Positions 17,682 to 57,671 of a stretch of 64,000 nt of DNA are shown here, one piece after another. A program made the translations under genes and the position numbers. Source of the stretch: Thermoplasmata archaeon. GTDB taxonomy: Archaea > Thermoplasmatota > Thermoplasmata > Lutacidiplasmatales > UBA184. Position 1 is the first letter of the stretch. Every line of letters starts with the position of its first letter. The stretch spans positions 36,927-100,926 of the forward strand of contig JAKIWI010000003.1 in NCBI GenBank assembly GCA_022750115.1, read 5' to 3'. A model generated the notes under the pieces. The model was not told where the DNA came from. It saw only the letters and a program-made list of their open reading frames with translations, and did no database searches.

Positions 17682-18038
17682 GTGACGGGAGCCCCAACCC
17701 CCGAGGCGGAGGAGATCCCGCCCGGGATGGTCCGCTACCTGCTCGGATTCCTCACCAAGGGCCCCCATTGGGGCGAGGGCAGCGAGGCGGAGCGGGAGGC
17801 CGTGCAGCGGGAGCACGTCGCGAACAACCGACGGCTCCAGGCCAACGGCGCCCAGGCCGTCTCCGGTCCGCTGCTCGACCACTCCGACCTGCGCGGCATC
17901 CTGATCTCCCGCGACGCGCCCGAGGCGCGGATCCGCGAGCTGGTCGCCGCCGACCCGGCCATCGCGAGCGGCCCGCTCCGACCCGAGCTGCGCCCCTTCC
18001 TCGCCTTCGACGGACTCCGAACGAACGCTCCGCCCTGA
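17682..18038 (+). CDS. YciI-like (YCII-related) protein
   Basis: A 118-residue protein with the YCII ferredoxin-like fold: YLLGFLTKGPHW, then EREAVQREHVANNRRLQANGAQAVSGPL, and the later RELVAADPAIASG. The conserved His (QREHV) and the Asp of the VAADPA motif, proposed catalytic residues in the family, are present. GTG 17682 has an aggag sequence 6 bases upstream. It is 9 bases from the VOC gene and 9 bases from the ATP-grasp gene, so one operon is likely. The reaction is unknown. Confidence 0.75.
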   Translation: MTGAPTPEAEEIPPGMVRYLLGFLTKGPHWGEGSEAEREAVQREHVANNRRLQANGAQAVSGPLLDHSDLRGILISRDAPEARIRELVAADPAIASGPLRPELRPFLAFDGLRTNAPP

Positions 18039-18047
18039 GCCCCTCGC

Positions 18048-18935
18048 GTGTCACCTCGAAGCGCCTCCCGTCGGTCCTCCCCGGCCGACGTCGCCCTCGT
18101 CACCTGCGGTGGGCCGAAGGGTCACCCCGCGGAGGACGAGCCCCTCGCCGCGGCCCTTCGACGGCGGGGCCGGACCGTGGCCCAACCGGTGTGGGACGAC
18201 CCGTCGGTGGACTGGTCGTCCTACCGGATGGCCGTCGTACGGTCCACCTGGGATTACTTCCATCGGCGGGACAAGTTCCTCCGGTGGGTCCAGCGAGCCA
18301 GCTCACGCGTCGATCTGTGGAACCCCCCCCGGACTCTGCGGTGGAACACCGACAAGGCCTACCTTCGGGACCTCGAGAAAGCCGACGTGCCGACCGTGGC
18401 AACACTCTGGATACCTCGGGGCGGCAAGCTCGACCCGGACCAGTTGAGCCGAACCGAGCGCGCGTCCGCGATCGTCGTCAAGCGCACCATCTCCGCCGCG
18501 GGAGAGGAGACGTACCGGTTCGCCGACGCCACGTCGGCCCCCGCGCGCCGAACGGTGGCACGCCTTGCCTCGAGCGGGCCGGTGATGGTGCAAAGCTACC
18601 TGGAGAGCGTCGAGACGATCGGGGAACGATCCCTCATGTTTCTCGGCGGCAGGTACACCCATGCGGTGCGCCGGACCCCCCTCTTCCCCCGACGGAAGCG
18701 CCGGCGCCGCGAGGCTGTCGTCTCCGTCTCGTCGGAACTCCGCGATCTCGCGACCCAGACGATCCGGGCGTGCCCCGAGGAACTCCTGTACGCCCGCGTC
18801 GACCTGGTACGCGACCGAGACCGGACCTGGAGGCTCCTCGAGCTCGAGGTGACGGAGCCTTCGCTGTTCTTCGTACCCTACCCCCGTGGCGCCGACATCC
18901 TCGCGCGCGCCATCGGCCGACGGCTCGCGAACTAG
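18048..18935 (+). CDS. ATP-grasp protein (RimK / glutathione synthetase-like ligase)
   Basis: A 295-residue putative carboxylate-amine or thiol ligase. The order of elements matches the small ATP-grasp group close to prokaryotic glutathione synthetase: VRSTWDYFHRRDKFL, NTDKAYLRDLEKADVPTV, the ATP-binding AIVVKRTISAAGEETY, GPVMVQSYLESVETIGERSLMF, and the metal-binding LLELEVTEPSLFF. Start is GTG 18048. The substrate cannot be read from sequence. It closes the VOC-YciI-ATP-grasp operon. Confidence 0.75.
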   Translation: MSPRSASRRSSPADVALVTCGGPKGHPAEDEPLAAALRRRGRTVAQPVWDDPSVDWSSYRMAVVRSTWDYFHRRDKFLRWVQRASSRVDLWNPPRTLRWNTDKAYLRDLEKADVPTVATLWIPRGGKLDPDQLSRTERASAIVVKRTISAAGEETYRFADATSAPARRTVARLASSGPVMVQSYLESVETIGERSLMFLGGRYTHAVRRTPLFPRRKRRRREAVVSVSSELRDLATQTIRACPEELLYARVDLVRDRDRTWRLLELEVTEPSLFFVPYPRGADILARAIGRRLAN

Positions 18936-47415: not shown

Positions 47416-48912
47416 ATGACCGCCCCCGAGGACTGGCTCAGCTACCCCGATGCGCCCCTCCTCCGGACGCCGCCGCCGGGACCTCGTTCGGCCGCCCTGC
47501 TCGCCGAGCAGGCCCGCTTAGAGACCGACGCGGTCGTCTACGCGAAGTACTTCCCCATCGCGATCGCGAACGCGCGGGGCTCGACGGTCGAGGACGCGGA
47601 CGGGAACCGGTTCATCGACTGGGTGGCGGGGATCTCCGTCCTCAACCTCGGGCACCGCCACCCGGCGATGATGCGCGCCCTCGCCGAGCAGTCGGAGAAG
47701 GTCTGGCACGCCCTCGAGCTGCCCACCGAGGCGCGCGTCGCCTTCCTGCGCGCCTTCACGGCGGCGCTCCCCGGCAAGCTCCGCGACCACGCCCGCGTCC
47801 TGTTCACCGTGACGGGCGGCGACGCCGTCGAGACCGCGGTCAACCTCGCCGACCACGCGAAGGGTCGCCACGGGACAATCGCGTTCACGGGAGCGTATCA
47901 CGGGGTCCACGGCGGGGCTGTGAACCTGACGAGCGGTCGCCGCTACCACTCGACGTCGTCGTTCCTCGGTGGGCGCGTGGTGCGGGTCCCCTACCCCGAC
48001 CCGTACCGGCCACTTCTGTCGTCGACCGAGGACCTCACCAACGCGACGATCCGCTACCTCGAACATCTGGTGCGCGACCCGCACTCGGGCGTCGACGAGC
48101 TGTCGAGCGTCCTCGTCGAGCCGATCCAGGGGGAGGGCGGCTACGTCGTCCCGCCCGACGACTTTCTCCCCGCGCTCCGGGAGTTCTGCGACGCCAACGA
48201 CCTCGCGCTGATCGCGGACGAGGTACAGACCGGGCTCGGCCGGACCGGGAAGATGTGGGCGGTCGACCATGCCCGCGTCTCGCCCGACATCATCTGCGTC
48301 GCGAAGTCGATCGGGGGCGGACTCCCGGTCTCGATGGTCGCCTACCGGGACGACCTCGTCCCTTCCCTTCCGCCCGGCTTCCATCTCGGGACGTATCGGG
48401 GGAATCCGCTCGGCCTCGCCGTCGGGACGGCGGTCCTCAACGTCCTCACGACCACCGACGTCATCGCCCGGGCGGAGCGCCGCGGCCGCGGCGTTCTCGA
48501 CCGGCTGCGGAGTGTGCAGGCCATGGACCCGTCGATCGGCGACGTCCGGGGGCGGGGGTTCATGATCGGCGTCGAGTTCGTCCGCTCCCCGTCGGACCGG
48601 GAACCGTGGACCGAGCGCGCGAAGGCGATGCGGCACGAGCTGTTCCAGCGCGGCGTGCTGATGCACACCTGCGGGAGCTTCGACCACGTGCTGCGGTTCA
48701 TGGCCCCGCTGACGATCGAGGACGAGCTCCTCGACCGCGGCCTCGCGGCGTTCGGCGAGTCGTCCCAGGCACTCTCGGCCACGCCTCCCCCGAAGTCGCA
48801 CATGACCGCGCCGCTGTCCGGTCCGCGGCCGGTCGCTCCGCCGTCGATCGCTCGTCCCCCGGCGGCGCCCATGCCCGTCGGGCCCCCACCGCCGGGCCGC
48901 ACGCTGCCGTGA
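47416..48912 (+). CDS. Class III PLP aminotransferase (GABA / ornithine / lysine type)
   Basis: A 498-residue fold-type I enzyme. PLP features are Asp268 in IADEVQTGLGRTG and Lys297 in CVAKSIGGGLPVS. The substrate strand starts FIDWVAGISVLNLGHRHPAM, with TVTGGDAVETAVNLA and FTGAYHGVHGG. It belongs with 4-aminobutyrate, ornithine or lysine aminotransferases and with archaeal broad-specificity amino acid racemases. The last ~55 residues are Pro/Ala-rich and probably disordered. GTG of the CARF gene overlaps its stop. The aldehyde dehydrogenases at 58-60 kb could handle the semialdehyde product. Confidence 0.85.
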   Translation: MTAPEDWLSYPDAPLLRTPPPGPRSAALLAEQARLETDAVVYAKYFPIAIANARGSTVEDADGNRFIDWVAGISVLNLGHRHPAMMRALAEQSEKVWHALELPTEARVAFLRAFTAALPGKLRDHARVLFTVTGGDAVETAVNLADHAKGRHGTIAFTGAYHGVHGGAVNLTSGRRYHSTSSFLGGRVVRVPYPDPYRPLLSSTEDLTNATIRYLEHLVRDPHSGVDELSSVLVEPIQGEGGYVVPPDDFLPALREFCDANDLALIADEVQTGLGRTGKMWAVDHARVSPDIICVAKSIGGGLPVSMVAYRDDLVPSLPPGFHLGTYRGNPLGLAVGTAVLNVLTTTDVIARAERRGRGVLDRLRSVQAMDPSIGDVRGRGFMIGVEFVRSPSDREPWTERAKAMRHELFQRGVLMHTCGSFDHVLRFMAPLTIEDELLDRGLAAFGESSQALSATPPPKSHMTAPLSGPRPVAPPSIARPPAAPMPVGPPPPGRTLP

Positions 48913-49742
48913 CGGGCAGACCACGACGGGCGCCGCGCGCGGCGGCGAACGCGCCGCGGGCGGGCGACCCGCACGCGCGCATCCACCTCGCGCCGGTCGG
49001 CTTCGAGGTCGAGCGCGTCGTCGAGCCGATCGTGAACGACCGGGCGGATCGTGTCTACCTCGTCACGCGGGACGGGGACGACGCCGCCGCCCCGTTCGTC
49101 GCGGAGGTCCAGCGTCGCCTCGCCCGGGCTCGCTGGCCGGTCGACGTCCGGGTCATTCCGACGCCGATCTGGGACGTGTTCGGAGCCCTCGGGGCGTACC
49201 GCCGCATCTTCGAGCTGGAGGGACGATCGGACCGGAACGCGAGCGGGGTCGTCCCGATCCGGGTCAATGTTTCCACGGGTACCAAGATCACCGCCATCGC
49301 CGGCACGCTCGCCTGCATGCTCTGGCGCGGCGAGCCGTACTACGTCCAGGTCTCCCGGTCGTGGTACTCCGGACGAACCCCCCGGGTGCAGGCCGTCAAC
49401 GATGTCGTCCGCTCGGTCGACCCGGTCGCCGTCTACGAGCTGCGGGCTCCGTCGCGCGAACTCGTCGACGTTCTCGACGCGCTCGATCGGGCCGGTGGGA
49501 CGCTGCGCAAGCGGGACCTGATCCGTTCGCTCGGGCTCGACCGCCCTACCGACGGAGGACGCCCGCCGAGCCCGCAGGCGCAGCACAGCCGGCTCCGGCT
49601 GCGGCTGACGCCCTTGGAGAGCAAATGGGGGTTCCTCGCGGCCGACCCGACCGGGAGCCGCGGTCGCGTTCGGCTGACCCCGCAGGGCCGTCTGGCACTC
49701 ACACTGTTCGGCCGATCGCGCGGCGACGATTCACCTACTTAA
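48909..49742 (+). CDS. HFX_2341-type CARF-domain transcriptional regulator (DUF6293)
   Basis: A 277-residue predicted regulator. Residues ~25-170 form a CARF-like Rossmann domain: RIHLAPVGFEVERVVEPIV, RVYLVT, and the ligand-loop VNVSTGTKITAIAGTLACM. The C-terminal ~100 residues look like a winged helix-turn-helix (VDVLDALDRAGGTLRKRDLIRSLGL, then RLRLTPLESKWGFL). In CRISPR systems CARF domains sense cyclic oligonucleotides, but HFX_2341 proteins are stand-alone archaeal regulators. Here it is translationally coupled to a PLP aminotransferase, and no CRISPR genes are visible. The ligand may be a nucleotide or an amino-acid metabolite. Confidence 0.75.
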   Translation: MTGRPRRAPRAAANAPRAGDPHARIHLAPVGFEVERVVEPIVNDRADRVYLVTRDGDDAAAPFVAEVQRRLARARWPVDVRVIPTPIWDVFGALGAYRRIFELEGRSDRNASGVVPIRVNVSTGTKITAIAGTLACMLWRGEPYYVQVSRSWYSGRTPRVQAVNDVVRSVDPVAVYELRAPSRELVDVLDALDRAGGTLRKRDLIRSLGLDRPTDGGRPPSPQAQHSRLRLRLTPLESKWGFLAADPTGSRGRVRLTPQGRLALTLFGRSRGDDSPT

Positions 49743-50195: not shown

Positions 50196-53111
50196 ATGAA
50201 TCCAACCACCCACCGCGCCACTCTGGCCGTCCTTGTCGCGGCGACCGTGGCCGTGGTCGCGTTTTCGAGCGTCGTCGCCTTGGCCGGCGGCCCTCACTCG
50301 ACGACCACTGCCAGTAGCGGTATCCGGCCGAGCGGAACCACGACCATCACGTCCTGTACCGAGGCCGCGCTCGCCGCAGCCGTCGCCAGCGGTGGGAACG
50401 CGACGTTCGGCCTCAGTTGCAGGCCCCTCACGATGAAATCGCCGATCAACATCACGGCGGGCCTCACGATCAACATCAGTTCCGGGGGCAACACGGTCGA
50501 ACTGAGCGGAGCCGGTACGAGCCAGCTGTTCGTCGTGAAGGGTGGCCATCTCAACATCACGGGACTCTACCTCGAGTTCGGTCACGCGAAGGGCGCCGCC
50601 GGGAAGGCGGGATCGTTCGGCAGCAACGGGATCGGGGGCAGCAACGGAATGGCCGGAGCCCCTGGTACCAGCGGGACGGGCCAGTCCGGCACCGCCGCAA
50701 CCCACGCCTCCAAGGGACACAACGGCACCGCGGGAGGGGCGGGAACCGCGGGCGGTAGCGCCCGCGGCGGCGCGATCTGGATCCAAAGCGGAGTCGTGGT
50801 GCTCAGCTCGGACACCTTCAACGTCAACACCGTGCTCGGCGGCAACGGCGGCGCGGGGAGCGCCGGCGGGTCCGGTGGCACCGGAGGGGACGGCGGCCCG
50901 GGAGGCAACGGCGGCAGCGGCACGTACGGCTCCGCGGGCGGCAATGGCGGCAGCGGCGGTGCCGGCACCAACGGAGCCGCCGGTGGCCACGGCGGAAAGG
51001 GTGGGAACGGCGGCGTCGGGGGAATCGGGGAAGGCGGAGCGATCTACAACGCCGGAACCCTGACGCTCATCTCGGACTCTTTCAGCTCCAATTACGCGGC
51101 CGGTGGCAACGGCGGGACCGGCGGTACGGCCGGCTCGGGCGGTAACGGCGGACTCGGAGGGAACGGCGGCATCGCTGGCAACGGCGGCACCGCCATCAAC
51201 ACGAGCGGCGGGCACGGCGGAACCGGCGGCCACAACGGCGGCGGGGGAGCCGCGGGCTTCGGCGGAGCCGGAGGTAACGGCGGCGCCGGCGGGGCCGCGG
51301 AGGGCGGGGCGATCTTCAACGCCGGTCAGTTGACCGTCTCGAGCTCGACGTTCACGGCCGACGCGTTGTACGCTGGCAGCGGCGGCAATGCGGGCAACGG
51401 GGGTCACGGCGGAATGGGCGGCAGCGGCGACACCGGCGGTGGCTCGGGGGCCGGTGGGGGCCAGGGCGGTCAGCCCCAGGCCGGAGGAACGGGCGGATCC
51501 GGGGGCTCCGGAGGTCCGGGCCAGCCGGGCGGCGCGGGCGCGGCCGGGGCGAATGGCGGCGCCGCGGGTCTCGGAGGCGCGGGAGGCGCTGCGAAGGGCG
51601 GGTCGATCTTCACGTCGCGGGCGGCGACGATCACGGGCACGACGTTCACGAGCGACCAGGTCAACGGCGGGACCGGCGCCAACGGCGGCACGGGCGGCTC
51701 CGGGGGCGACGCCGGCAACGGCGGTGCGGCCGGAGGCGGCGGCGGGGGCGGCGCGGCCGGGCCGGGGGATGTGTTCATGGGAACGGGCGGCGGCCTCGGC
51801 GGGACCGGCGGCGCCACGAGCCCGGGCGCGACCTCCGGCGTCGCGGGCGTGGGGGGTTCGGGCGCTCCGGGCGGGGCCGGAGGCGCGGGTGGGCTTACCG
51901 CCGGCGGATCGGTCTACTCGAACCTGACAGCCGGGAAGCTCACGCTCGCGAACTCCCAGGTCTCCTTCTCGGGACTGCTCGGGGGAAACGGAGGTTCGGG
52001 CGGCGCGGGCGGTTCCGGGGAATACGGGGGCTTCGGTGGGCCGGGCGGGTACGGCGGGTCCGGCGGGAGCGGCGGGTTCGGGGTCAGCAACAACACGTTG
52101 TCCGGGTATGACGGGGGATCCGGCGCCCCGGGGAACGCGGGGTCCATCGGCTCCGTCGGCGGCGCCGGCGGCGGCAGCGCGGCGGCGGGTGCCGGCGGGG
52201 TCGGAGGCGCGGCGTTCGGCGGCGGTGTGTTTGTCGCGGGCAACGCGAACCTCTCCAACGACCTGATCGAATCTTCGACGGCCGACGCGGGATCCGGTGG
52301 ACCCGGTGGCGCGGGCGGCGCTGGCGGATCCGGCGGCTCCGGCGAACTGGGCGGCAACGGTGGCTCGGGCGGCGGCGGCGGATCGGGCAGCGTGAGCGCC
52401 GGGAACGGCGGCGGTGGCGGCGCCGCGGGGAGCGCCGGACCGGGCGGCGCGGGTGGCCCGGGCGCCGGCGGGTACGCGGGCGCGCTCGGCGGCGCCGGCG
52501 GCTCATCCTGGGGCGGCGGAGTTTACGCCTCGGGGAGCCTTTCGCTCACGATGACCAACTTCACCTCGGACGCGGCGACCGGAGGGGTCGGCGGACCCGG
52601 CGGGAACGGCGGGCCGGGCGGCGCGGGCGGTGCGGGTGGTGTCGGCGGGTACGGGGGGAATGGGGGCGCGGGTGGCTCCGGCATGAGCGGAGGCCACGGA
52701 GGGATTGGAGGGAACGGCGGGTCCGGTGGCCACGGCGGCGACTCGGGCGGCGGCGGGAACGGCGCGAACGGCGGCGCCGGCGGCAGCGCCTCCGGTGGCG
52801 GCCTCTACAACACCACGACGCTCGTCAAGAACACCGGCAATACCTACACGTCCAACTCGGTGACCGCGGCGTCGGGCGGCTCGGACAGCTGCTCGGGCGG
52901 CATCGGGACCGGCTGCGCCGGATTGAGCGTGGCGGGCGGAACCGGTGGTCACGGCGGCACGCGGGGCGTCGGAGGGGCGAACGGGAACGGCACGGGCCAC
53001 GGAGCCAACGGCACGACGGGAACGACCGGCGGGGCCGGTGGGAATTTCCCGAACGGATCGGCGGGCGTGAACGGACCGACCGGGGTCGCTCGGTACCCGG
53101 ACCACAACTAG
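50196..53111 (+). CDS. Secreted glycine-rich PGRS-like surface protein with beta-helix repeats
   Basis: A 971-residue protein with a signal peptide (ATLAVLVAATVAVVAFSSVVALAG). Residues ~55-125 start like a right-handed beta-helix (TEAALAAAVASGG, ITAGLTINISSGGNTVEL). Eight non-glycine segments then recur roughly every 90-105 residues, each like GGAIYNAGTLTLISDSFSSN. Long tracts of GGxGGxGG with G, N, A, S and T separate them. The pattern resembles PE_PGRS proteins and pectate-lyase-like or polymorphic-outer-membrane repeats. The glycine tracts could form polyglycine-II sheets. The role is presumably cell surface or adhesion; no catalytic motif is seen. Confidence 0.7.
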   Translation: MNPTTHRATLAVLVAATVAVVAFSSVVALAGGPHSTTTASSGIRPSGTTTITSCTEAALAAAVASGGNATFGLSCRPLTMKSPINITAGLTINISSGGNTVELSGAGTSQLFVVKGGHLNITGLYLEFGHAKGAAGKAGSFGSNGIGGSNGMAGAPGTSGTGQSGTAATHASKGHNGTAGGAGTAGGSARGGAIWIQSGVVVLSSDTFNVNTVLGGNGGAGSAGGSGGTGGDGGPGGNGGSGTYGSAGGNGGSGGAGTNGAAGGHGGKGGNGGVGGIGEGGAIYNAGTLTLISDSFSSNYAAGGNGGTGGTAGSGGNGGLGGNGGIAGNGGTAINTSGGHGGTGGHNGGGGAAGFGGAGGNGGAGGAAEGGAIFNAGQLTVSSSTFTADALYAGSGGNAGNGGHGGMGGSGDTGGGSGAGGGQGGQPQAGGTGGSGGSGGPGQPGGAGAAGANGGAAGLGGAGGAAKGGSIFTSRAATITGTTFTSDQVNGGTGANGGTGGSGGDAGNGGAAGGGGGGGAAGPGDVFMGTGGGLGGTGGATSPGATSGVAGVGGSGAPGGAGGAGGLTAGGSVYSNLTAGKLTLANSQVSFSGLLGGNGGSGGAGGSGEYGGFGGPGGYGGSGGSGGFGVSNNTLSGYDGGSGAPGNAGSIGSVGGAGGGSAAAGAGGVGGAAFGGGVFVAGNANLSNDLIESSTADAGSGGPGGAGGAGGSGGSGELGGNGGSGGGGGSGSVSAGNGGGGGAAGSAGPGGAGGPGAGGYAGALGGAGGSSWGGGVYASGSLSLTMTNFTSDAATGGVGGPGGNGGPGGAGGAGGVGGYGGNGGAGGSGMSGGHGGIGGNGGSGGHGGDSGGGGNGANGGAGGSASGGGLYNTTTLVKNTGNTYTSNSVTAASGGSDSCSGGIGTGCAGLSVAGGTGGHGGTRGVGGANGNGTGHGANGTTGTTGGAGGNFPNGSAGVNGPTGVARYPDHN
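50196..53111 (+). repeat. Coding repeats: eight beta-strand segments alternating with Gly-rich tracts
   Basis: Conserved GG(A/S/G)(I/V/L)(W/Y/F) segments begin near nucleotides 50762, 51034, 51304, 51600, 51904, 52218, 52515 and 52797, so the period is about 270-315 bases. Between them the DNA is nearly simple-sequence (ggcggn units), which makes recombination and copy-number change likely. The reverse strand carries long shadow frames because of the biased composition. Confidence 0.7.
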
Positions 53112-53234: not shown

Positions 53235-54890
53235 ATGTCTCTCGACCGCCGGGGTCGGCAACGCCGGCGGCTGCTCCTGGGTGCAAGCCTGGCAATGATC
53301 GGTGGACTCCTGGTCGTGCCGGGCGTCCTGGTCGCTCCCGCGCGGGCCGATTCCGCCGCGGTGACCCCCGGGCAGTGGTTCGCGTTCGACTACGACATCT
53401 ACCTCGACAACGGGGTCGGCAACTACTCGGGGTACACCGAGCAGACCCTCGAGCACTACCGGTACCACGTCGTCAGCGTTGTCGGCTCGAACGTCACGCT
53501 GTTCGGGAGCGGCAACTGGCAGTTCTCGAACAACTCGGGGGGGAGCGGGAGCGGCAGCTGGTCGGAGACGTTCTCGTACTCCTCCGCCACCCGACTCTAT
53601 CTCTGGGGGTTCGACGTCTTCGGAAACTACTCGAAGCCCGCGATCTGGTTCTGGGTCCCGACGCCGCTCGCGAACGGACAGGTGCTCCCGATCCTGGACG
53701 ACAACTTCACCGTCCGTGCCCAGAGCACCGACGTCTGGGGCGGTCTCCCGCCCATCCCCCGGCAGGGGATCCAGCTCGAGACGACGGGCTCCTTCGTGCG
53801 GACCGACAGCTACGGGAACTTCAACGCCAACTGGGACGACACCTACTGGTTCGCGCCGAGCTCCGGCTTCGTCCTGGCGGAGACGTACGTCGAGCAGGAC
53901 TCGAACTCCGCCGGCGACGGGTTCCGATGGCGCGAACTCGCCACGGTCACCTCGGCGAGCTACCTGATCCCGTACGACTGGGCGGCGCTGCTCGCCGTCT
54001 ACGCGGGGATCCCGGCGACGGTGGCGGGAGCCCTCGTGTCGATCCGGTGGTACCATCGCGGGCCGCGCCACGTCCGCCCGACGCCGCCGCGGACCGGCCC
54101 CTCCGTGACCGTGCGGCGGGTTCGGAACGTGACCAAGTACCTCGCGTTGCCGACGGCCACGGCCTCGCCGTACGGCCCGTTCCTGCCGTTGATCGTCCGA
54201 CGCGCGCGGCAGCGGAAGTGCCCGGTCTGGGTGGCGACGGACGGGACCCGGCTCGTCGGGGTCATGGTCCGCGAGCGGGAGGCGCGGGTCTCCGCCCTCT
54301 TCACATCGGATCCCGCCATCGCAAAGCTGTTCCGCTCGATGAACCGCTCGCGCGGGTTCTTCGCCGAGCTCCCGCCCAGCGCCTGGGTCCCGCCAGCGCA
54401 ATCGGTCGACCGGTTCTCGGTCCTGACACTCTCGCCGGTCCCCGCTCCGACGAGCGCGGACCCGAGCGTCCGCCCGATGCGGCCGGAGGACCTCGCGGCG
54501 GTCCTCGTGCTCGCCAAGGCGGTCTACACGATCCCCGAGCCGAAGTGGCTCCGGCAGGCGTTCGACGACGGCGACCTCGGGTTCACGGCCTGGGACGGCT
54601 CGGAGCTCGTCGGCTTCGCCTTCGCCACGGTCGCGGGGGACGACGCCATCCTCCACACGCTGACGGTGGACCGGCGCTACCGCGGGCAGGGGTACGGCCA
54701 CGCCCTGATGGCCGCCCGGCTGAGCGCGCTCGCTGCCCTCGGCGTGCAGCGCGCGCTCGTCGAGATCTCGGTCCGCAACGTGGCGTCGCTGGCGGTCGCC
54801 CGGGCGTTCGGCTTCGCGAAAATCGGCGAGACGACGTACTACTCCCGGAAACCGAAGCGGGCGGTCCCCGTCGACCGGAGGCCGTTCTGA
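53235..54890 (+). CDS. Secreted sensor-like domain fused through a membrane helix to a GNAT acetyltransferase domain
   Basis: 551 residues. A twin-arginine-like basic start (RRRLLLGASLAMIGGLLVVPG) leads to an outer beta-rich domain (~40-240) with Tyr/Trp-rich strands (WFAFDYDIYLDN, WGFDVFGNYSKPAIWFWVP). A membrane helix follows (WAALLAVYAGIPATVAGALVSI, ~250-272). The cytoplasmic part (~300-551) contains two GNAT-like halves; the second is canonical (RPMRPEDLAAVLVLAKAVY, acetyl-CoA loop DRRYRGQGYGHALM, SVRNVASLAVARAFGF). One-helix membrane proteins pairing an outer domain with a GNAT are unusual and suggest signal-triggered acetylation. It heads an operon with two unknown genes. Confidence 0.7.
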   Translation: MSLDRRGRQRRRLLLGASLAMIGGLLVVPGVLVAPARADSAAVTPGQWFAFDYDIYLDNGVGNYSGYTEQTLEHYRYHVVSVVGSNVTLFGSGNWQFSNNSGGSGSGSWSETFSYSSATRLYLWGFDVFGNYSKPAIWFWVPTPLANGQVLPILDDNFTVRAQSTDVWGGLPPIPRQGIQLETTGSFVRTDSYGNFNANWDDTYWFAPSSGFVLAETYVEQDSNSAGDGFRWRELATVTSASYLIPYDWAALLAVYAGIPATVAGALVSIRWYHRGPRHVRPTPPRTGPSVTVRRVRNVTKYLALPTATASPYGPFLPLIVRRARQRKCPVWVATDGTRLVGVMVREREARVSALFTSDPAIAKLFRSMNRSRGFFAELPPSAWVPPAQSVDRFSVLTLSPVPAPTSADPSVRPMRPEDLAAVLVLAKAVYTIPEPKWLRQAFDDGDLGFTAWDGSELVGFAFATVAGDDAILHTLTVDRRYRGQGYGHALMAARLSALAALGVQRALVEISVRNVASLAVARAFGFAKIGETTYYSRKPKRAVPVDRRPF

Positions 54891-54892
54891 CG

Positions 54893-56116
54893 ATGGTGCC
54901 CGCCGTCTGGGTGGCGAACGAACCGCTCGAGCTCGTCCGGCTCACCGAGGGTCTGGTCACGGTCGGGAATCCAGCCTTCCGGCAGCTCTGGCAGGACGGT
55001 CTCGCCGGGGGATTCGTCCCCCGGCTGCTCTGGGAACTCGCGGGTCGCCCGCCGGGCACTCCTGCGGAGGGGATCCGGGACGACAACCGGAGCGCGCTGC
55101 TCCCGGCGCACCGGACCGTCGTCGGGTCGCAGGAGTACGTCGTTTCCGTCAAGGGGTGCGGCGCGAAGTACGACGCCTTCCAACCTCGCCGACTCTCGCA
55201 CGGGATCCTTCGCGAGATCTGCCACGACCCGGAGCTCCGCCGGTCGTTGGAGGGTCGCGAGGGCGAGATCCCGAACTTCCTCCTCGGGGAGCGCTGGTGG
55301 GGCTACGCCCCGTACGGGGGCCAGGCCGCCGACAACGCGCTCGTGAGCCTGCTCGCGAGCCTGCGTGCCGACGTCGACCAGATCGCGGGGTTCCACATCT
55401 GCCCGGTCGTCGCCGCCGTGCAGCTCCCGCCCGCCATCGCGGCCGTCGCCTCCCAGTTCTACTGGATGCGCCGGTACGACGGGGCCTACTGGCAGGAGGT
55501 CCGATTGATGCCGTCGAACGTTCGGCTGTACTTCCACAGCCCGCTCACCCTCGGCGTCGACCCCGCCCGGGTCCTCGCGCTCTACCAGCTCGATTCGCTG
55601 GAGCGGTGCGCCGACTTCCTGGAGCATCTGCTGGCGTCGGCGATCGCGGCCACGACCCTGCTCGCGCGCACGCTGCGCTACGACAGCGACCGGTCGCTCT
55701 ACACGGGCCTCGATTTCTTCGAGGTGTACCTCGACAAGGACTCGGTCGTCGCCGGGGACGGGACGCTTCACTTCGCGGACCTCGAGGGGGTCGAGCCGTT
55801 CCAGGCGGAGAATCCGCACGCGGTCAAGGAGCGGATCTTTGGGCAGTTCTACCAGAACATCTACGAGGCGTCCTACGCGGTCGAGATGGTCGCCCGCACC
55901 GTGTGGAGCACGCTCGGGATCACCGCGTCGGAGTCGGACCGCCGGGCGTGGACCCTGGAACGCCTCGAGCACGCGGTGCAATCGGACCCGTACGTCCGGG
56001 TCCATCGCTCGGGCGAGCGCCTCACGTTGACGGTCGAACCGGCGGTGGATCCGGAGAAGACCTCGCTCGAGCTCATCTGGACCAGCGGGACGGAGGGGGC
56101 GGCCGTTGGACACTGA
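54893..56116 (+). CDS. Unknown soluble protein of a three-gene cassette (possible kinase-like fold)
   Basis: A 407-residue protein that I do not recognise. It begins 2 bases after the membrane-GNAT stop and overlaps the next gene by 11 bases, so the three are one operon. Landmarks are a Cys-Gly-rich VVSVKGCGAKYDAFQPRRLSHG, FLLGERWWGYAPYGGQAADN and an acidic DKDSVVAGDGTLHFADLEGVEP. The last is vaguely like the metal-binding loop of protein-kinase-like folds, too weak to call. No signal peptide or membrane helix is clear. The frame extends upstream inside the previous gene; ATG 54893 is chosen from gene spacing. Confidence 0.6.
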   Translation: MVPAVWVANEPLELVRLTEGLVTVGNPAFRQLWQDGLAGGFVPRLLWELAGRPPGTPAEGIRDDNRSALLPAHRTVVGSQEYVVSVKGCGAKYDAFQPRRLSHGILREICHDPELRRSLEGREGEIPNFLLGERWWGYAPYGGQAADNALVSLLASLRADVDQIAGFHICPVVAAVQLPPAIAAVASQFYWMRRYDGAYWQEVRLMPSNVRLYFHSPLTLGVDPARVLALYQLDSLERCADFLEHLLASAIAATTLLARTLRYDSDRSLYTGLDFFEVYLDKDSVVAGDGTLHFADLEGVEPFQAENPHAVKERIFGQFYQNIYEASYAVEMVARTVWSTLGITASESDRRAWTLERLEHAVQSDPYVRVHRSGERLTLTVEPAVDPEKTSLELIWTSGTEGAAVGH

Positions 56117-57671
56117 CCGGGCGCTCCAGCTGCTCACCGCGCTGGCGAACGGACGCGACCCTGCGGCGACCCCGGGCGAGCTCGCCGACCTGGTCGAGCT
56201 CGGGGGGATCGACGAGGTCTCCCCCGACGCGCGGGCCGGACTGGCCGCGAACGCCACGGGCCTCGATGCGGCCCGGTCGGCGGTGCGGGACCAGCGGCGG
56301 GCCTTGGACCTCGCGTGGGGTCCGCGGACGGGCCCTCTCTCCGGGGCCAACAAGGGCGCGCTCGCGGCCGCGCAGGCGACGCTCCGCGCGGCCGTCGCCC
56401 AACTGGAGGCCGGCAGCCTCGCGCAGGCGACCGTCGCCGCGCTCGTCCCGAACTCCCCGACGGGATCGTTCGTGTCGCTGACGCTGTCCGGTCGCCAGAC
56501 GCTCGTCGACCTCACCGCCTGGCGGACGCGATTCGGCCGCGTGGAACTGCGGGAATTCGACGAACGCGTCGACAGCCTCGGGCGGTTGTTGGGCTCCTGG
56601 GTCGGTTCGGCGATCCCGATCGCGGACGGGCTGGACGACGTCGACCAGAACTCCCGATTCCACTGGGGACACCCCGCCGTCCGGGCGAGCGCCCTCATGC
56701 TCCTCGCCCAGGGCGGCGCGACCTTCTCGCAAGAGTACCTCGCTTCGCGGGTCACCTACTTCTTCCGCCAGATCGGCCACCACGGAAAATCCCCGTCGGA
56801 CGGCCTGATGGTCGCCTCCGTGCTCGCCGCCGTCAACGGCGACTCCGAGCCGGTCAAGACGGCGTTCCTCTGGATCCGCGCCGGCCTCGCGAACGGCCCC
56901 CCGTTCGCCGGCGCACCGTCGCTCCCGATCGACCTCGCGGCGGCCTGCCTCGCCGACCTCCCGATGGCGAGGACCCCCGAAGGGTTCGCCGGCATGGCCG
57001 AGATGTCGCAGGCCCTGGGCACCAACGACCCCCTGGCGGTCGCGATGCTGGTGCGATCCGGCTACTCCCTCGTCGACGCCGCGACGCGGTTCCGCGCGGC
57101 GACCGAGGCGCTGCAGGGACTCGGGTACACGGACGGGTCGATCCCGACCTCCGCGGCGATGCTCGCGAGCTCCCTCGTCGCCGCCCCGTCGTTCGCGGCG
57201 CGGCTCTCGGAGCTCGACCCGTGGGCGCGCGCCTCGTTCCCATCGCCCGCCGTCGCCGCGGCGCTGCTCGGCTCCCTCCTTCTCGCTCCCTCGGAGGCGC
57301 TCCTGCTCCAGAAGTACGCGGTCGGCCGGGTCGCCGCCGGGTCGTTCTTCGACGAGACCCCCGAGATCGACTACCTCGCTCTGCTCGTCGTCTCGGGGAT
57401 CGTGCGCAGCGGCACCGCGGCCGAACAGCTCGGTCTCGCCCCGCCCTCCGATCGTCCCGAGCTCACGCCGCTCGGCGGCACGGGCCAGGGGTGGACCGTC
57501 CCCGACTCGGCCCCGCTCCCCTCGAGCGCCCCGGCCCTGGCCGTCGGGGCCACGGGGGCCGTCCTCCTCCCGGCGCTGTTCGCCGGCCAGGCGTACTGGC
57601 TGTACCAGGCGTACTTCGAGTACACCCGCCAGCACCCGGTCCACTCCAACCTGGTCCCGATCTACGGCTAA
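56106..57671 (+). CDS. Unknown helical protein, third gene of the cassette
   Basis: A 521-residue, mostly helical, alanine-rich protein from TTG 56106, overlapping the preceding gene. Recurrent helix-turn-helix-hairpin units (SGRQTLVDLTAWRTRFG; MLVRSGYSLVDAATRFRAATEAL) suggest an alpha-solenoid-like body. A hydrophobic segment near the C-terminus (AVGATGAVLLPALFAGQAYWLYQA) could be a membrane helix. I recognise no family or catalytic motif. Co-transcription with a membrane acetyltransferase suggests it is a partner or target. Confidence 0.55.
   Translation: MDTDRALQLLTALANGRDPAATPGELADLVELGGIDEVSPDARAGLAANATGLDAARSAVRDQRRALDLAWGPRTGPLSGANKGALAAAQATLRAAVAQLEAGSLAQATVAALVPNSPTGSFVSLTLSGRQTLVDLTAWRTRFGRVELREFDERVDSLGRLLGSWVGSAIPIADGLDDVDQNSRFHWGHPAVRASALMLLAQGGATFSQEYLASRVTYFFRQIGHHGKSPSDGLMVASVLAAVNGDSEPVKTAFLWIRAGLANGPPFAGAPSLPIDLAAACLADLPMARTPEGFAGMAEMSQALGTNDPLAVAMLVRSGYSLVDAATRFRAATEALQGLGYTDGSIPTSAAMLASSLVAAPSFAARLSELDPWARASFPSPAVAAALLGSLLLAPSEALLLQKYAVGRVAAGSFFDETPEIDYLALLVVSGIVRSGTAAEQLGLAPPSDRPELTPLGGTGQGWTVPDSAPLPSSAPALAVGATGAVLLPALFAGQAYWLYQAYFEYTRQHPVHSNLVPIYG

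Follow-up and report, generated by a model that had tools for sequence, protein, structure and literature searches.

Glycine-rich regions built of GGX triplets are usually dismissed as disordered or as repeat noise, and the polyglycine II (PGII) sandwich proposed for PGRS proteins rests, to our knowledge, on models alone. In Mycobacterium, the PE_PGRS proteins form a multigene surface family with long (GGX)n tracts, for which pure PGII sandwiches of 3-5-triplet helices have been modeled and in which large indels are tolerated (PMC9436101, PMC10216338). Independent PGII bundles are described in phage S16 gp38, ALK, Obg, and acetophenone carboxylase (PMC13243192, PMC8409303). The snow flea and springtail antifreeze proteins (AFPs; 2PNE, 3BOG, 7JJV) are small, free-standing animal proteins in which short helices make a two-layer Gly-rich PPII/PGII bundle. 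We found no protein in the open-access literature that combines PGII with a beta-helix, and none with PGII in archaea.

The window analyzed here, a 64,000-nucleotide stretch of DNA from a Thermoplasmata archaeon, contains an open reading frame (50196-53111, + strand) whose 971-aa translation is 39% Gly (375 G). The protein runs from a hydrophobic signal through an N-domain and a Gxx tract into eight non-Gly segments (rungs) of ~26 aa each, starting at residues 188, 279, 369, 467, 569, 675, 772, and 866. These alternate with seven GGX tracts of 64-80 aa and are followed by a Cys loop and a tail. Intervals from rung to rung are 91, 90, 98, 102, 106, 97, and 94 aa (overall 90-106), matching the period of ~90-105 residues given in an earlier note on this DNA. 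The alternation of eight segments with (GGX)n tracts that it described is likewise real, as 21 full-length homologues, non-redundant and drawn from three genera, share the segments and the spacing. A non-repetitive N-domain (residues ~46-133, with Cys54 and Cys75) and collagen-like Gxx sequence at both ends were absent from that description. The features are as follows.

50196..50288, + strand: predicted N-terminal signal, either a Sec-type signal peptide or a signal anchor, residues 1-31, MNPTTHRATLAVLVAATVAVVAFSSVVALAG, a hydrophobic stretch
50331..50594, + strand: N-terminal non-repetitive domain, residues 46-133, predicted short helix and first beta-helix coils (N-cap)
50595..50756, + strand: N-terminal tract of collagen-like sequence (Gxx, with Gly confined to one position in three), from the phase of Gly residues across 21 members
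50757..50834, + strand: rung 1, residues 188-213, from AF2, 21-member spacing, and Gly phase
50835..51029, + strand: GGX tract 1, 65 aa, with out-arm, tip (~residues 240-248), and back-arm, from AF2, Gly phase, and indels
51030..51107, + strand: rung 2, residues 279-304, EGGAIYNAGTLTLISDSFSSNYAAGG, the best conserved, from AF2 and rung comparison
51108..51299, + strand: GGX tract 2, 64 aa, tip ~331-339 (GTAINTSGG), interval 90 aa in 15/21 members
51300..51377, + strand: rung 3, residues 369-394, from AF2 and 21-member spacing
51378..51593, + strand: GGX tract 3, 72 aa, with two break sites (Gly phase, indels) close to residues 416 and 427, interval 98 aa in 15/21
51594..51671, + strand: rung 4, residues 467-492, from AF2 and 21-member spacing
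51672..51899, + strand: GGX tract 4, 76 aa, tip ~525-533 (DVFMGTGGG), from spacing, Gly phase, and indels
51900..51977, + strand: rung 5, residues 569-594, the least conserved, from AF2 and rung comparison
51978..52217, + strand: GGX tract 5, 80 aa, the longest, tip ~631-639 (SNNTLSGYD), from spacing, Gly phase, and indels
52218..52295, + strand: rung 6, residues 675-700, from AF2 and 21-member spacing
52296..52508, + strand: GGX tract 6, 71 aa, tip ~729-737, from spacing, Gly phase, and indels
52509..52586, + strand: rung 7, residues 772-797, from AF2 and 21-member spacing
52587..52790, + strand: GGX tract 7, 68 aa, tip ~828-836, from spacing, Gly phase, and indels
52791..52871, + strand: rung 8, residues 866-892, from AF2 and 21-member spacing
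52872..52928, + strand: Cys loop, Cys899 and Cys907, each in 20/21 members, consensus GGVDNCxxxxxCPGxGG
52929..53108, + strand: Gly-rich tail at the C-terminus, GGX followed by Gxx, with ARYPDHN as its last residues, from Gly phase; pLDDT under 50

Hydrophobic N-termini comparable to this one are present in 11/11 aligned homologues. The N-domain has a mean identity of 42%, with Cys54 in 21/21 members and Cys75 in 19/21, and the conservation of the Cys pairs suggests that each end is probably capped by a disulfide, 54/75 at one and 899/907 at the other. In rung 2, GGAI, N285, and G287 are invariant in the homologue alignment. The triplet register is held along each arm, the X positions are rich in A, S, T, and N with few charges, and residues 188-865 contain 2.7% D+E and 0.7% K+R. 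Pfam and NCBIfam recognize no family in the 971-aa protein, nor does Pfam in 11 members; Chlam_PMP has no match at E 0.1 (971-aa protein) or 0.01 (11 members), while by eye the rungs resemble GGAI...F. No C-terminal hydrophobic anchor is seen in the 971-aa protein. This anatomy points to a protein that is probably secreted and located at the cell surface, where it may serve in adhesion or as a coat or barrier.

Relatives of the protein place it in a real multigene family of Ca. Lutacidiplasmatales. The host genome (a 2.1-Mb MAG) has one copy; a profile search, along with a protein search of 101 genomes, finds the family in 20 of 78 same-genus genomes, some with several copies. Many copies sit at contig ends, so these counts are lower bounds. 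Among 300 sampled genomes of the class, strong matches are limited to three genera of the same taxonomic family, and a wider phylum sample gave only weak profile matches (E 1e-6 to 1e-8). A scan of genome contigs with the single protein returned no match, nor did a six-genome trial in bacteria. A DNA pattern with the Cys loop as bait recovered records of Thermoplasmata archaeon MAGs, including AcS1-3, AcS4-93, AcS11-62, and AcS13-54. PMC9287336 assigns the AcS MAGs, which come from forest soils in Scotland, to Ca. Lutacidiplasmatales, a group reported to be acidophilic and without archaellum genes, and the earlier note's placement of the protein in an archaeon is thereby borne out. The paralogues are old, with tree tip branches of ~0.9 changes per column and subgroups that cross genera. 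A phage or plasmid origin was rejected, as tblastn found no match in phages or plasmids and a pattern scan of viral contigs was empty.

What sets this family apart is the constancy of its lengths. Among the 21 full-length members, which share ~47% identity, all eight rungs are kept in 21/21, and the mean intervals are 90.2±1.4, 90.3±0.8, 98.1±0.8, 102.5±1.8, 104.0±2.2, 96.5±1.3, and 94.7±1.5 aa, with SDs of only 0.8-2.2 aa. The 11-member alignment, at 43-50% identity to the 971-aa protein, shows the same nearly constant intervals. These are shortest N-terminally, longest mid-protein, and then shorter again, as expected of a rounded blade edge. Indels relative to the 971-aa protein fall mostly in the tips (88 events over 120 residues, compared to 26 over 189 in rungs and 2 over 369 in arms), or 36.7, 6.9, and 0.27 per 1000 residues per homologue, respectively, for tip windows defined post hoc, after indel positions were known. 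Gap placement in repeats is ambiguous, but interval lengths are independent of it. Single-residue events make up 80 of the 116 indels, the largest among the 20 homologues is 7 aa, and each tract has one or two indel sites, tract 3 having two break sites. The tip windows coincide with mid-tract dips in pLDDT and with loss of Gly phase.

Within the tracts, identity to the 971-aa protein is 75% at Gly-consensus positions, whereas X positions show 18% identity, with 11.8% expected by composition. These comparisons indicate that selection acts on geometry, namely, arm length and Gly register, with side chains nearly free. Rungs of the same index are more alike in different proteins than rungs of different index within one protein (identity, 0.378 versus 0.221), and 126 of 168 match best to their own number in other proteins, where chance gives 21, which marks rung number as an inherited identity. 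Hairpin lengths kept almost to the residue in some twenty distant relatives argue for a precise fold and not a floppy repeat sequence. The description of the tracts as "almost simple sequence" suits the protein but fails for the DNA, in which Tandem Repeats Finder reports only short arrays with 63-88% matches; a simple-repeat or slippage origin was rejected on the length lock and these weak DNA repeats.

An AF2 model of residues 46-971, built with 15 sequences, has a mean pLDDT of 80.7 and a pTM of 0.74. Outside the mid-tract dips, most blocks of the first four tracts score 88-97; later tracts reach about 77-93, N-domain strands 83-96, and the tail (model residues 848-926, residues 893-971) stays below 50. 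VIA-align places mostly 254-283 residues of the model on right-handed beta-helices (Z 20-25, rmsd mostly 2.2-3.5 Å), as with 8ja4 (Z 24.8, rmsd 2.4) and AlgE4 2pyg (Z 24.0, rmsd 2.7). About 270 residues, N-domain included, match mannuronan epimerases (Z 24, 2.3-2.8 Å), and the alignment is spread over model residues ~1-866. As the N-domain (~88 residues) and eight rungs (~23 each) add up to ~272 residues, close to the aligned length, the spine would be built from all rungs, with the tracts as insertions. The N-domain and rungs are thus predicted to form one continuous right-handed parallel beta-helix.

Fragment 213-466, with three tracts and two rungs but without the N-cap, reaches a pLDDT of only 48 when predicted alone, so the arms reach confident prediction only when the full spine is modeled with them. 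All solved structures that Foldseek lists for this fragment are springtail AFPs, with low TM-scores that are probably due to sequential alignment. VIA-align of this low-confidence model to snow flea AFP 2pne gives Z 10.9 and an rmsd of 1.4 Å over 78 of 81 residues, although the training set of AF2 may have included springtail AFPs. Because the match spans range 1-254, all three tracts, each of the six arms could correspond to one of six PGII helices, a natural if only suggestive reading. Gxx at the terminal tracts with GGX inside would suit the edges and the interior, respectively, of a PGII sandwich. No sequence relatives were found among solved structures by phmmer, springtail AFPs included; the family profile yields mainly collagen-like Gxx composition matches there, at terminal tracts, and Foldseek against viral models returns only generic beta-helix and collagen-like matches. 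The suggestion of polyglycine-II sheets around a beta-helix spine is supported by the full-length model and, through a low-confidence model, by the PGII-bundle match of the tracts. Structure prediction gave more than disorder, and the periodic strands are conserved in homologues.

The proposal that this is the PE_PGRS architecture without the PE domain is not supported. A PE domain is indeed absent, with no Pfam family in the 971-aa protein or 11 members and an N-terminus made of a hydrophobic signal and Cys-containing domain, and a GGX-rich domain is present, for which the PGII bundle match comes from the fragment model of pLDDT 48. However, the archaeal family has a 23-26-aa beta-helix coil in every repeat, its arms have ~9-12 triplets compared to 3-5 in PGRS, and its lengths are fixed where PGRS proteins have large indels (PMC9436101, PMC10216338), none of that in-frame type being seen at species level among 20 homologues (maximum, 7 aa; interval SD, ≤2.2 aa). 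The GRPLI motif is also absent from the 971-aa translation. Closer in plan are beta-helix proteins of Planctomycetota, whose Gly-rich loops are short and which look like short-armed variants of this design. Two of these (L095 and L096, choice-of-anchor Q), matched at E 1e-6 to 1e-7 only, repeat a GGAIY-type rung and then a GGX tract about 6-11 times. They differ in their variable intervals (44-63 aa in L096, mostly 49-61 in L095) and in a C-terminal choice-of-anchor Q domain (NF041518), for which the 971-aa protein has no NCBIfam match. Right-handed beta-helix proteins such as AlgE4 (2PYG), PL6 lyases, PfbA, NosD, and Rhombotarget A superpose on the N-domain and eight-coil spine but lack the 64-80-aa Gly tract after each coil. 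Springtail AFPs have no beta-helix spine, and the other PGII bundles are set apart, by their descriptions, by short helices and the lack of repeat-wise solenoid coupling.

We consider it fairly probable that the protein is a secreted composite solenoid, with a beta-helix spine and a two-layer PGII blade of ~10-triplet hairpins, acting as a surface structural or adhesive protein. The N-domain would nucleate a right-handed parallel beta-helix, and each ~97-residue repeat would contribute one spine coil and then one long PGII hairpin, out and back, whose arms of about 9-12 GGX triplets would measure roughly 90-100 Å if, as we infer, they are straight. Since the rise of a beta-helix and the spacing of PGII are both about 4.8 Å, successive hairpins would stack side by side, the beta-helix mast templating their register. 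Seven stacked hairpins may then form a flat two-layer PGII blade hung on that mast, with PGII packing predicted at low confidence. Its faces would carry small, nearly uncharged residues and its tips the variable ones; the whole would be an extracellular blade, thin, neutral, and rigid. Such a blade should be insensitive to low pH, because backbone hydrogen bonds and not charges would hold it, and this should fit archaea of acid soils. The family would be a length-locked variant of a composite architecture that is itself apparently undescribed so far. The fuller claim, of a coil and a ~10-triplet PGII hairpin in every repeat on a shared 4.8-Å pitch, with PGII helices longer than in known bundles and the first in archaea, and with lengths selected while side chains drift, is one that we put forward tentatively, at slightly less than an even chance.

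A sandwich of the PGRS type, in which each tract would hold several short helices of 3-5 triplets and the rungs would be only hydrophobic turns, draws on the GGX composition, the published PGRS models (PMC9436101, PMC10216338), and the fragment's match to springtail AFPs, which have short helices. We regard it as unlikely, as each tract usually shows a single phase break, a single dip in pLDDT, and a single site of indels, lengths do not vary by triplets, the AFP match covers all three tracts and not one, and in the AF2 model the N-domain and rungs form a stacked beta-helix (Z 24). Disordered or elastic Gly-rich linkers between beta-strand patches, grown by replication slippage, would account for the low complexity, the GC-richness, and the low pLDDT of the fragment alone. 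This is quite improbable given that lengths are locked despite randomized X positions, arms are almost free of indels, DNA repeats are short and imperfect, and pLDDT is high in the full model.

The springtail AFPs, as the only solved-structure matches of the fragment, and the composition of the X positions might also suggest an ice-binding protein with a flat PGII face on ice. Yet X positions are not conserved, no fixed Ala/Thr face is visible, neither the large size nor the eight-coil spine is needed for such a role, and a shared fold shows no function, making this reading very improbable. A carbohydrate-active beta-helix enzyme, a lyase or epimerase with decorated loops, has still less probability: the best solved spine matches are alginate epimerases and lyases, but the right-handed beta-helix is a generic fold, the repeat region is almost uncharged, and no enzyme family is recognized.

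The family is a natural experiment, in which divergence is deep and side chains are nearly free while arm length and Gly register stay fixed, as a backbone-only PGII lattice would demand. It also shows that GGX domains do not tolerate indels as a rule. As a probably disulfide-capped protein of a non-pathogen, it is a candidate for solving a long PGII sheet. Organisms living at low pH may have in it a surface material, and for protein design it suggests using a beta-helix as the template that sets the register of PGII strands.

The surroundings of the gene show no conserved operon or partner, flanking proteins having no match near other members within 1.5-8-kb flanks. Directly upstream (window 48912-49742, +) is a putative ligand-sensing archaeal regulator with matches to HFX_2341_N and DUF6293_C (winged helix). 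Downstream (53235-54890, +) is an apparent fusion of signal peptide, extracellular region, transmembrane helix, and GNAT acetyltransferase domain, followed by two putative open reading frames (54890-56116 and 56106-57671, +) of ~408 and ~521 aa with no Pfam family. Elsewhere, one family copy (L012/L044; G038:C11, ~18034-18755) is interrupted by a TGA stop and by shifts of frame and may be a pseudogene or an assembly error. At another locus (L084/L085; G010:C28, 270000-305000), a 21-kb stretch holds three paralogues, with secreted Fn3-like and Kelch-like proteins next to them; with these neighbors judged by eye, it appears to be a surface-protein region.
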